From positions 1 through 62,990 of the forward strand of contig JAFTYI010000042.1 in the NCBI GenBank assembly GCA_017464815.1: a stretch of DNA of 62,990 nucleotides, given 5' to 3'. The position numbers and the translations under genes are program-made. The notes below the pieces were generated by a model. That model ran no database searches. It was not told the DNA's origin and worked only from the letters and a program-made list of their open reading frames with translations. Shown in pieces: positions 12,035 through 13,850 of the stretch (its first letter is position 1; each line of letters opens with the position of its first letter). The stretch comes from Bacteroidaceae bacterium (GTDB lineage: Bacteria; Bacteroidota; Bacteroidia; Bacteroidales; Bacteroidaceae).

Positions 12035-12658
12035 TTACTTCCGCTTTACATACACCTTATGCGTCCCATGCCCCTCGTAAGTAATGCCGCTTTCGGGGTC
12101 GTTGCGGAAGGCTTGCAGTTCCAGCGTGGCGGCGGTGCGCGACAGGCCGGTGAGCGACATGTATTGGGCGATGTTCATCGTGGTGTGTTTGTCCAGATAG
12201 TCCAAGGCGCGGGCCAGACGTTCTTCGCGCGTGTACTTCTGTTTACGGATGCGCTGTGTGCCACCACGTGTCAGGGTGCAGTTGTAATTCGTGTCCTTGA
12301 TGAGCTCTTTGTCCGGGCGGAAGTAGATGTCCGTCACCTGCAGGCTCTGTGCATTGAGGCTCGGTTTGCCATCGTCCAGCCCGTCCATCTCCTTTCCGCG
12401 TTTCAGCCCGATGCCAGCGCGGAATGTCCCCAGTCCGTCGATGGTTACGCTGTGTCCCAGTGCCATAGCAATGGCCAACTGATGGGTGATGTGTTTCAAC
12501 ACACTTTCGACATGTTTCGTGATAAACGGGTCTGCACTCTCCAACCACTCCAAAAAGTGCTCGTGGGTGAAGTGCAGGTTGCGCTTCATGCGGTAATAGA
12601 CTTTCTTCTCGCCTGTGCCGTGCAAGTCATTCATTTCCTGTTTGATATACTCTGCCAT
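12035..12658 (-). CDS. HU-HIG DNA-binding protein with C-terminal winged helix
   Basis: A 207-residue protein related to the nucleoid protein HU. Residues 1-130 match the HU-HIG type (HU fused to HTH, Ig or glycine-rich parts) common in Bacteroidota: a helical N-terminus, then GHSVTIDGLGTFRAGI at 69-83, equivalent to the HU beta-arm entry. Residues about 142-205 (YTREERLARALDYLDKHTTMNIAQYMSLTGLSRTAATLEL) look like a winged helix-turn-helix. There is no signal peptide, so it is cytoplasmic. A full consensus promoter lies at 12726-12696, and four phased palindromes sit directly upstream of it. The downstream beta-helix gene is probably cotranscribed. Autoregulation or control of the beta-helix gene is inferred. 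Confidence 0.88.
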   Translation of the reverse strand: MAEYIKQEMNDLHGTGEKKVYYRMKRNLHFTHEHFLEWLESADPFITKHVESVLKHITHQLAIAMALGHSVTIDGLGTFRAGIGLKRGKEMDGLDDGKPSLNAQSLQVTDIYFRPDKELIKDTNYNCTLTRGGTQRIRKQKYTREERLARALDYLDKHTTMNIAQYMSLTGLSRTAATLELQAFRNDPESGITYEGHGTHKVYVKRK

Positions 12659-12695
12659 AGTAACTGTTAAGATTAAAAGTGAATTTGCTAGTGTG

Positions 12696-12726
12696 CAAAG
12701 TTAATAAGACTTGCTGAAAAATCAAA
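12696..12726 (-). promoter_or_regulatory. Promoter of the HU-HIG operon
   Basis: Read on the minus strand: TTTG (12726-12723), exactly 19 bases, TAACTTTG (12703-12696). This is a full match to the Bacteroidota consensus, 38 nt before the ATG at 12658. Confidence 0.8.
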
Positions 12727-12737
12727 ATCGCTTAGCC

Positions 12738-12835
12738 GAAAACTTTAATCAGCAGTGGTGATTATATAATCAGCACTGTTAATTATATAATCAGCACTGC
12801 TGATTATGTGATTAGCACTGCTGATTAAAGTTTTC
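12738..12835. promoter_or_regulatory. Four phased 21-bp palindromes, candidate operator array
   Basis: Four units of exactly 21 bp lie at 12747-12767, 12768-12788, 12789-12809 and 12810-12830. Each is built on the palindrome AATCAGCACTGCTGATT, with 1-4 changes per copy. GAAAACTTT (12738-12746) and its complement AAAGTTTTC (12827-12835) bracket the set. The inner edge is 12 bp upstream of the HU-HIG -33 box. The 21-bp period equals two DNA turns, so all four sites face the same side. The other side of this 370-base gap has only short AT-rich direct repeats (a TTTTCTCTTAGGA motif at about 12831 and 12896) and the DUF554 promoter. Confidence 0.75.
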
Positions 12836-12997
12836 TCTTAGGACAGATTATAAAACACTGGTGACAAATTGATTTTTCTGTTCGGCAAATTGAATTTTTC
12901 TCTTAGGAATTGTTGTGTTATTATTGTTGGCTATGAGAAATTAGGAATTTCCCCCTATTTTTATCCCGATTCCTTTTCTTCTTTATCTGTATAATTG

Positions 12998-13005
12998 TAC
13001 CTTTG
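12998..13005 (+). promoter_or_regulatory. Promoter -7 element for the DUF554 gene
   Basis: TACCTTTG matches TAnnTTTG, 26 nt before the ATG at 13031. Its position inside the upstream-extended reading frame shows that the extension is not coding. Confidence 0.6.
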
Positions 13006-13030: not shown

Positions 13031-13720
13031 ATGATAGGAACCATAGTGAACACTTGCACGATAATCGTGGGCAGCATCGTGGGTGCTGTGATGAACAGAG
13101 GGATAAAGGAAAAGTATAAGGACGCGCTGTACACCGGATTGGGGTTGGCCTGCTTGGGCATCGGCCTCAATGCGGTGATAAGCAATTTCAGCAAGAGCGA
13201 ATACCCTGTGCTCTTTATTGTGTCGATAGCCGTCGGGAGTGTGGTGGGTACAGCGCTGGACCTCGACGGACGGTTTGCCAAGCTGATAAACAAACGCTCG
13301 AAAGGCGGCAAGAACACCAACCTTGCTGACGGCCTCTCCACCGCCATCCTGCTCTACTGCATCGGGCCACTTGCCATGCTCGGCCCGGTGATAAGTGCGC
13401 TGAAGGGCGACAACACCTTTCTCTATACCAATGCTACACTTGACTTGGTGACCTCCGCCGTCTTTGCCAGCACCTACGGCATTTGGGTGATACTGGCTGC
13501 CCCCGTGCTCTTCTGTTGGCAGGGCATGTTCTATCTGGTGGCAAAGCTGTCGAGCACCGCCGTCAGCGACGCACTCATGGCAGAGCTGCTCATCGTTGGC
13601 GGACTGATGATTGTCGCTTCGGGACTCTCCCTCCTGAAACTGAAAGATTGCAAGACGTTGAATATGCTTCCCGCCCTGCTTGTCCCTGTACTTTGGTTCC
13701 TTGTGAGGAGTTTGGTGTAA
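13031..13720 (+). CDS. DUF554 membrane protein
   Basis: A 229-residue integral membrane protein of the DUF554 (YdfK/YqgA) family. It opens with MIGTIVNTCTIIVGSIVGAVMNRG, the family's characteristic N-terminus, and has about seven hydrophobic spans rich in Gly and Ala (GLGLACLGIGLNAVI, LFIVSIAVGSVVGTALDLDG, AILLYCIGPLAMLGPV, LLIVGGLMIVASGLSLL). The reading frame is open 12 codons further upstream from a TTG, but the start at 13031 is preferred because the promoter lies inside that extension and the family begins here. The function of DUF554 is not established; transport is often guessed. It stands alone, ending before a repeat array and a hairpin. Confidence 0.9.
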   Translation: MIGTIVNTCTIIVGSIVGAVMNRGIKEKYKDALYTGLGLACLGIGLNAVISNFSKSEYPVLFIVSIAVGSVVGTALDLDGRFAKLINKRSKGGKNTNLADGLSTAILLYCIGPLAMLGPVISALKGDNTFLYTNATLDLVTSAVFASTYGIWVILAAPVLFCWQGMFYLVAKLSSTAVSDALMAELLIVGGLMIVASGLSLLKLKDCKTLNMLPALLVPVLWFLVRSLV

Positions 13721-13744: not shown

Positions 13745-13850
13745 GTCAACAGTGCGCTGCAAGAAAACTGGATTATGAAAGTCCGCGACTGGACTATGAA
13801 AGTGCAGGCGTGGACTATGGAAGTTCACAGTTGAAGTTTGGCGGACAGTA
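13745..13850. repeat. Degenerate 21-22 bp direct repeats
   Basis: Units at 13767-13787, 13788-13809 and 13810-13831 share CTGGACTATGAAAGT, with diverged units on both sides. On the minus strand the array reads as repeated DFHSP-like peptides in a spurious open frame. It lies between the DUF554 gene and its terminator. Confidence 0.65.

Follow-up and report, generated by a model that had tools for sequence, protein, structure and literature searches.

The locus described here raises the question of why four regularly spaced palindromes stand directly before the promoter of a gene for an HU-HIG protein. HU-HIG proteins form a large family of Bacteroidetes, expanded in Bacteroidales, and neither a binding site nor arrays of this kind were found for them in a limited search of the open-access literature. 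The HU clades are reportedly the subject of a 2017 paper. The window (the whole stretch of DNA analysed, 62,990 nucleotides of contig JAFTYI010000042.1 of a Bacteroidaceae bacterium) belongs to a source genome (G000) of 58 contigs and 2.63 Mb that is 79% complete.

The array and the neighbouring HU-HIG gene

In the window, four 17-bp palindromes spaced by 21, 21 and 21 bp lie between GAAAACTTT and AAAGTTTTC. On the plus strand the units are AATCAGCAGTGGTGATT (12747..12763), AATCAGCACTGTTAATT (12768..12784), AATCAGCACTGCTGATT (12789..12805) and GATTAGCACTGCTGATT (12810..12826), and the two outer arms, GAAAACTTT (12738..12746) and AAAGTTTTC (12827..12835), pair with each other. The initial annotation had described both the 21-bp spacing of four units and the enclosing 9-bp inverted repeat. 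The arms were found at these positions, and allowing up to three mismatches on both strands the window contains 8 unit matches against a chance mean of 0.23, a number reached in 0 of 100 shuffles. A generic scan for four palindromes scored the array at 49.0, compared with 34.5 for the runner-up, and it is the only strong one in the window. The array is real, but only one of its four units is exact AATCAGCACTGCTGATT with the full dyad, while the other three differ from it by two bases on the plus strand and have 1-2 mismatched pairs each. Across the four units, 27 of 32 dyad pairs are formed.

Positions 12738-12835 constitute a single 98-bp inverted repeat (49+49, 86% complementary), as first delimited, but conservation within the genus continues for about 80 bp in register on each side and then ends sharply. 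Both flanks consist of degenerate 21-22 bp bricks. The left one (12666..12746, minus strand, ends approximate) is directed away from the array and is delimited by register, by conservation to about 83 bp and by a lag-21 repeat; the right one (12827..12907, plus strand, ends approximate) is delimited by repeat, register and conservation. At lags of 21-22 the identity within the flanks is 0.40 and 0.36, compared with 0.22-0.30 at other lags.

The HU-HIG gene (12035..12658, minus strand) encodes 207 amino acids with an N-terminal HU-like domain and a C-terminal winged helix. The protein scores 46.6 bits with Pfam HU-HIG (PF18291; gathering cut-off 26.2) and has the HU domain fused to a further part (wHTH, Ig or Gly-rich) by which the family is recognized. 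Its promoter, read from the sequence and scored, falls within the conserved left flank and consists of TTTG as the -33 box (12726-12723) and TAACTTTG (12703-12696), both on the minus strand; the latter matches the -7 consensus. The TTTG-N19-TAACTTTG promoter had been called perfect, and indeed its score of 13.0 is the maximum possible; 11 bases separate the outer arm from TTTG. On the other side of the array lies a divergent DUF554 gene (13031..13720, plus strand; Pfam DUF554, 231.3 bits) with a TACCTTTG box nearby at 12998-13005.

The subfamily profile matches IHF-beta and HU chains across residues 31-81. The predicted structure is of moderate confidence (mean pLDDT 72.9, pTM 0.40) and best in the winged helix. 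Among the 50 fold matches listed, all were to the winged helix (residues 138-207) and none to an HU fold, which does not count against such a fold, and a single-sequence search for solved relatives returned just one irrelevant match.

Linkage of four-unit arrays to HU-HIG genes

Among Bacteroidales HU-HIG genes of the winged-helix type, a four-unit array with S>=33 lies upstream of 34 of 37 independent genes and of 9 of 262 control genes (Fisher 5.5e-33, for a score that rewards exactly this layout and a threshold set after arrays were seen). Relatives with half of their 4-mers in common were collapsed, reducing 49 HU-HIG genes to 37. The controls, taken from 461 kb of the source genome and scored identically, replaced an earlier set of 345 genes that was contaminated by loci picked for their arrays. 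One of the nine array-bearing controls is the DUF554 gene, which shares the window array; others adjoin arrays of other words. For 48 of 49 distinct subfamily proteins, the upstream array was better than all 200 shuffles of the gene's own upstream DNA.

Arrays detected with model R1 are present in 11 of 61 genomes (source genome included), all among the 22 that carry this HU-HIG at E<=1e-10 and none among the 39 without it (1.7e-6, kinship ignored). Outside the genus they occur in four genomes, all four belonging to the 10 of 46 with HU-HIG (1.3e-3). With a covariance model of 25 arrays, four-unit arrays of different words were located immediately before HU-HIG orthologues beyond the genus, in records of RUG13423, Parabacteroides faecalis, P. 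distasonis and another Parabacteroides. Seven of the eight genomes behind these loci (G007 appearing again as G068) contain matches, mostly at several places, and those inspected have one or two private word families each. Among 107 outward neighbours of arrays, HU-HIG is the largest family, with 12 genes in 9 genomes, the non-genus genomes having been chosen via HU-HIG or R1. The remaining neighbours mostly differ between genera, FtsX-type permeases recurring within the genus.

The linkage has its exceptions. One HU-HIG gene (L267) is without an array, and two others (L225, L230) score below 33. In four genomes with mostly distant members, where 36 of 52 HU-HIG matches were examined, no clear array was found at 19 of the 36, and z>=6 was reached at 17. 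The source genome itself has undergone a large HU-HIG expansion (17 PF18291 matches), many of its members having private arrays with a spacing of 21-24 bp. Leaving aside the 90-aa HU-like genes, 15 HU-HIG genes are found there, nine of them with a clear array (z above 7). Two genes have none (L140, L141), one upstream region is of low complexity (L133), L142/L143 are ambiguous and L144 shows two candidates of lower score (z 6.4-7.2). An array-like stretch (z 10.7) also stands 269 bp before one 90-aa HU-like gene (L149). In G013, a CASTG array is present, yet the sole HU-HIG is 57% identical and has another word, and in G002 the close orthologue is found only as a C-terminal fragment; both are incomplete MAGs.

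The initial annotation had proposed an operator array of the HU-HIG gene, which could be followed through orthologues by its 17-bp palindrome. What persists upstream of the orthologues, in the proportion given above, is the array with its four-unit layout; the 17-bp word is not kept in distant ones, and copies are dispersed elsewhere. A site at the regulator's own promoter that is kept in orthologues is what characterizes an autoregulatory operator, and such a site is found here, together with the promoter phasing described below.

Private words and dispersed copies

Array words differ from gene to gene, and for several of them further four-unit arrays exist in the genome concerned. For the window word, three further arrays were found in the source genome: C5:36307-36386, between genes for dipeptidyl-peptidase IV and an ABC transporter; C6:1329-1408, between DUF6922 and Band_7 genes; and C49:1-46, which is cut by the contig end and has a DciA gene on its single visible side. 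The word is thus not confined to HU-HIG. Random scatter of the palindromes over the genome had been named as a possible objection, and it is not what is seen: the arrays elsewhere are word-specific four-unit copies. By DNA search, 7 of 61 genomes including the source carry the word, all within the genus (7/15 of it), and one of them (G005) has it at 13 places. Contigs end inside arrays in G005 (C60, C100, C51), G004 (C45) and G000 (C49), which makes the numbers of arrays counted in draft genomes minimum values. At one locus the array is absent from G000, G012 and G013, without a sharp empty site, and decayed in G006, which indicates that distant copies are dispensable. In L343 (G013) and L344 (G012), the gap orthologous to that of the C5 array holds a different, weaker 22-bp array with ATGGCCAT (S about 35). 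Strong four-unit arrays of other words, with 22-23 bp spacing and S 43.5-48, stand in the source genome at C39:8384, C39:51273, C39:192224 and C6:42274; the word at C39:51273 is similar to that of the array upstream of the G006 HU-HIG L371.

The correspondence of word and protein was examined with motifs derived from distant arrays only. The G000 motif picked 1 of 17 HU-HIG promoters (111.9; next -22.1; shuffled maximum -10.9). In P. faecalis, words a and b coexist and point to two different HU-HIG promoters: the motif of word a (11 distant arrays) picked 1 of 16 (121.5; next -42.8), and that of word b (10 distant arrays) also 1 of 16 (65.6; next 8.8; shuffled maximum 13.6). The word b HU-HIG was found by family search after the word had been seen, and it is the sole carrier among the 16 promoters. 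G007 similarly has two words, each with an HU-HIG gene. In the source genome, the word of a paralogue on C53, TTTCACGTCGTGAAA, has a second four-unit copy at C23, and the words of five more paralogues recur within the 461 kb (L134, weakly; L136, L137, L139, L145). By eye, arrays match the word of an HU-HIG promoter of the same genome in G021, G026, G064, G065, G066 and G067; for the single arrays of G027 (L247) and G020 (L248) no HU-HIG with a matching word was found.

Within the genus, the core of the HU-HIG-adjacent array equals that of the distant arrays in G000 (CASTG), G004 (CGSCG, degenerate in every second core on average) and G007 (CGWCG), arrays cut off by contig ends not being counted. 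The intact HU-HIG gene of G005 agrees with the distant arrays in 2 of 4 cores. The same genome contains a relic (L275, 1507-1604) comprising a decayed CGWCG-like array and the first eight or nine HU-HIG codons followed by unrelated protein sequence; it probably marks the loss of a second HU-HIG. The exception is G006: CGWCG is found in 12 of 16 distant cores counted, whereas its only close HU-HIG has CASTG, and no separate HU-HIG with a CGWCG word upstream was found among the 16 examined. The CGWCG motif nevertheless ranks that CASTG promoter first of 16 (36.1; shuffled maximum -15.4), owing to the outer words in common. Between genomes with CASTG and those with CGWCG, the HU-HIG proteins share about 90% identity, so that either few changes switch the word or the specificities overlap.

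Promoter phasing and competing explanations

In 34 HU-HIG-adjacent and 74 distant arrays, 5.4-6.2 of 8 pairs per unit are formed inside the four units, compared with a background level of 2.2-2.6 outside them; ten cut, duplicate or decayed distant loci (L042 included) and three HU-HIG genes below 33 were left out of this test. The spacing is less uniform than the unit number. The initial remark that 21 bp makes two helical turns holds for the window subfamily, a few members of which have 22 bp, but not for the whole family, since the arrays of other HU-HIG paralogues are spaced at 22-24 bp.

The distance from the array to the -7 box of HU-HIG genes clusters near 22, 33 and 44 bp and lies within 22-54 bp in 18 of 20. 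With a period of 10.5 bp, the -7 box keeps phase with the array both in HU-HIG genes (n=20, p=4e-4) and in other genes (n=34, p=5e-4, some rows being orthologous). These sets comprise promoters scoring >=11.5, namely 28 of 42 HU-HIG genes, reduced to 20 by removing relatives, and 35 of 88 others, reduced to 34. In 26 of the 34 other genes, the array is 100-200 bp from the -7 box. None of 98 arrays falls inside a called gene. After exclusion of nine loci (contig-end cuts or duplicates) and of the 18 of 98 arrays with one neighbour undefined, arrays are rarer in convergent gaps (7/80 vs 21/82) and commoner in divergent ones (34/80 vs 18/82). A coding role of the array was rejected: judged by eye, changes seem to follow the palindrome rather than the codons, and a reading frame stays open through the array because 21 is a multiple of 3.

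Given the observed linkage, word privacy, recurrence within genomes, unit number and promoter phasing, the array is most readily understood as a private operator of the neighbouring HU-HIG protein, which would regulate its own promoter and act at other promoters; the probability of this reading is put at about three in four. That HU-HIG is the protein binding the arrays appears very probable, and its autoregulation is likely. Dimers of the protein would sit on the four palindromes along a single face of the helix, with about even chances that they bend or wrap the DNA, and would control the HU-HIG promoter from a position immediately before its -33 box; activation is as plausible a sign of this control as repression. 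The same protein would act at dispersed arrays of the same word, most of which precede the -7 box of another gene by 100-200 bp. Each such paralogue would own a word, and the words would be replaced from lineage to lineage under a constant four-unit layout.

The arrays could instead be miniature transposable elements of the MITE type, symmetric and about 245 bp long, that spread between genes and came to lie at HU-HIG by chance. They lie between genes in multiple copies and are found at some orthologous sites but not at others, and the genus element has symmetric ends and stops abruptly about 83 bp from the array. However, when the edges of 27 elements were compared for direct words of 4-9 bp, the count rose above the permuted maximum at no length (the nearest case, k=7, had 3 elements vs a mean of 0.9 and a maximum of 4), four units are found throughout, and linkage to HU-HIG across genera with unrelated words would be unexpected for chance insertion. 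Such an origin is improbable, and transposition as a mode of spread was rejected on the missing duplication signal and the lack of a sharp empty site at the locus compared. A phage or plasmid origin was likewise set aside, there being no match in plasmid or phage collections; the exact 17-mer occurs in 22 stretches of viral contigs, none with E<0.01 in model R1 (best 0.06). Recombination may have spread the array, or it may have arisen repeatedly.

A function in organising or segregating the chromosome, similar to that of parS or matS, would account for an HU-HIG linkage that stays while the neighbours change between genera, for the HU fold of the protein and for four-site platforms with phased flanks; the copy at HU-HIG would then let the organiser adjust its own level. 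The scarcity of arrays in convergent gaps and their phasing to promoters point to promoters instead, and we regard this explanation as unlikely. A role of the palindromes as RNA hairpins (attenuator, small RNA or terminator) is hardly credible. The minus-strand RNA does fold far better than shuffles (z -6.9), but good folding is expected of any long DNA palindrome, covariation in pair counts does not rise beyond shuffles (0.135 vs 0.130), and the 17 Rfam matches with E<=1 are all under gathering scores. Moreover, a promoter was scored for 28 HU-HIG genes, and in 26 of these its -33 box is at or beyond the array edge, which places the array outside the HU-HIG transcript.

Several known systems offer comparisons with the proposed private operator. 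IHF, whose beta chain the subfamily profile matches, is sequence-specific and reads one asymmetric site, whereas HU-HIG has palindrome arrays, an added winged helix and words private to paralogues. Regulators of the Lrp/FFRP type include octameric Lrp, which wraps DNA; four dimers on phased palindromes would resemble this arrangement, although HU-HIG is an unrelated protein. TetR-type local regulators are autoregulated through a private palindromic operator, and here too a putative operator of this kind stands at each paralogue's own gene, often in a divergent gap; the HU fold, the four-site arrays and the dispersed copies of the whole array distinguish HU-HIG from them.

The nearest published description is that of BrickBuilt in Porphyromonas gingivalis, tandem 23-nt units that are likewise intergenic and multicopy, many with leader and tail (PMC4596501). 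The unit number given for these elements, which are classed as MITEs, ranges from 1 to 22.8, and two loci have target-site duplications (PMC4596501), whereas arrays of the window type have four units at 21 bp and no duplication signal. The shortest copy by the text of that paper, BrickBuilt_14 (84 nt, no TIR listed there), lies between PGN_0871 (-) and PGN_0872 (+), the latter a 'DNA-binding protein (PF00216)' of the HU family (PMC4596501). Judged by its position upstream of an HU-family gene, BrickBuilt_14 may fit the array rule and be that gene's own array.

The sequence comparisons suggest a large, unstudied family of regulators, each member reading a private four-part code. If the operator reading is true, candidate operators could be read from sequence alone for most subfamily members, dispersed repeats of gut Bacteroidales could be assigned to a named protein, the co-evolution of a protein family and its DNA words would be open to study, and many orthogonal protein-operator pairs would be on offer for gut commensals. 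A broader and decidedly tentative proposal is that HU-HIG proteins are sequence-specific architectural proteins, each building a four-dimer particle on its private array, both beside the gene that encodes it and at dispersed places. Protein and word would change together at such a pace that no word is common to related genera, every genome would have several orthogonal, rapidly rewired nucleoprotein networks, and 'minisatellite MITEs' such as BrickBuilt would be their binding arrays.

Some smaller regularities concern the letters of the arrays. In genus arrays, the 6-mers flanking the cores (window 12746-12827) usually read TAATCA or TGATTA. The two members of a mirror pair have the same word in 17 of 18 clear cases for positions 2/7 and in 17 of 17 for positions 4/5 (21 arrays, kinship ignored), and by this the perfect 98-bp palindrome is broken. 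Downstream of the DUF554 gene, at 13766-13850, four direct repeats resembling GGACTATGAAAGTCC are spaced at 21 bp (S=34.5), and similar words are found in the source genome at C39:93124 and C39:190901.
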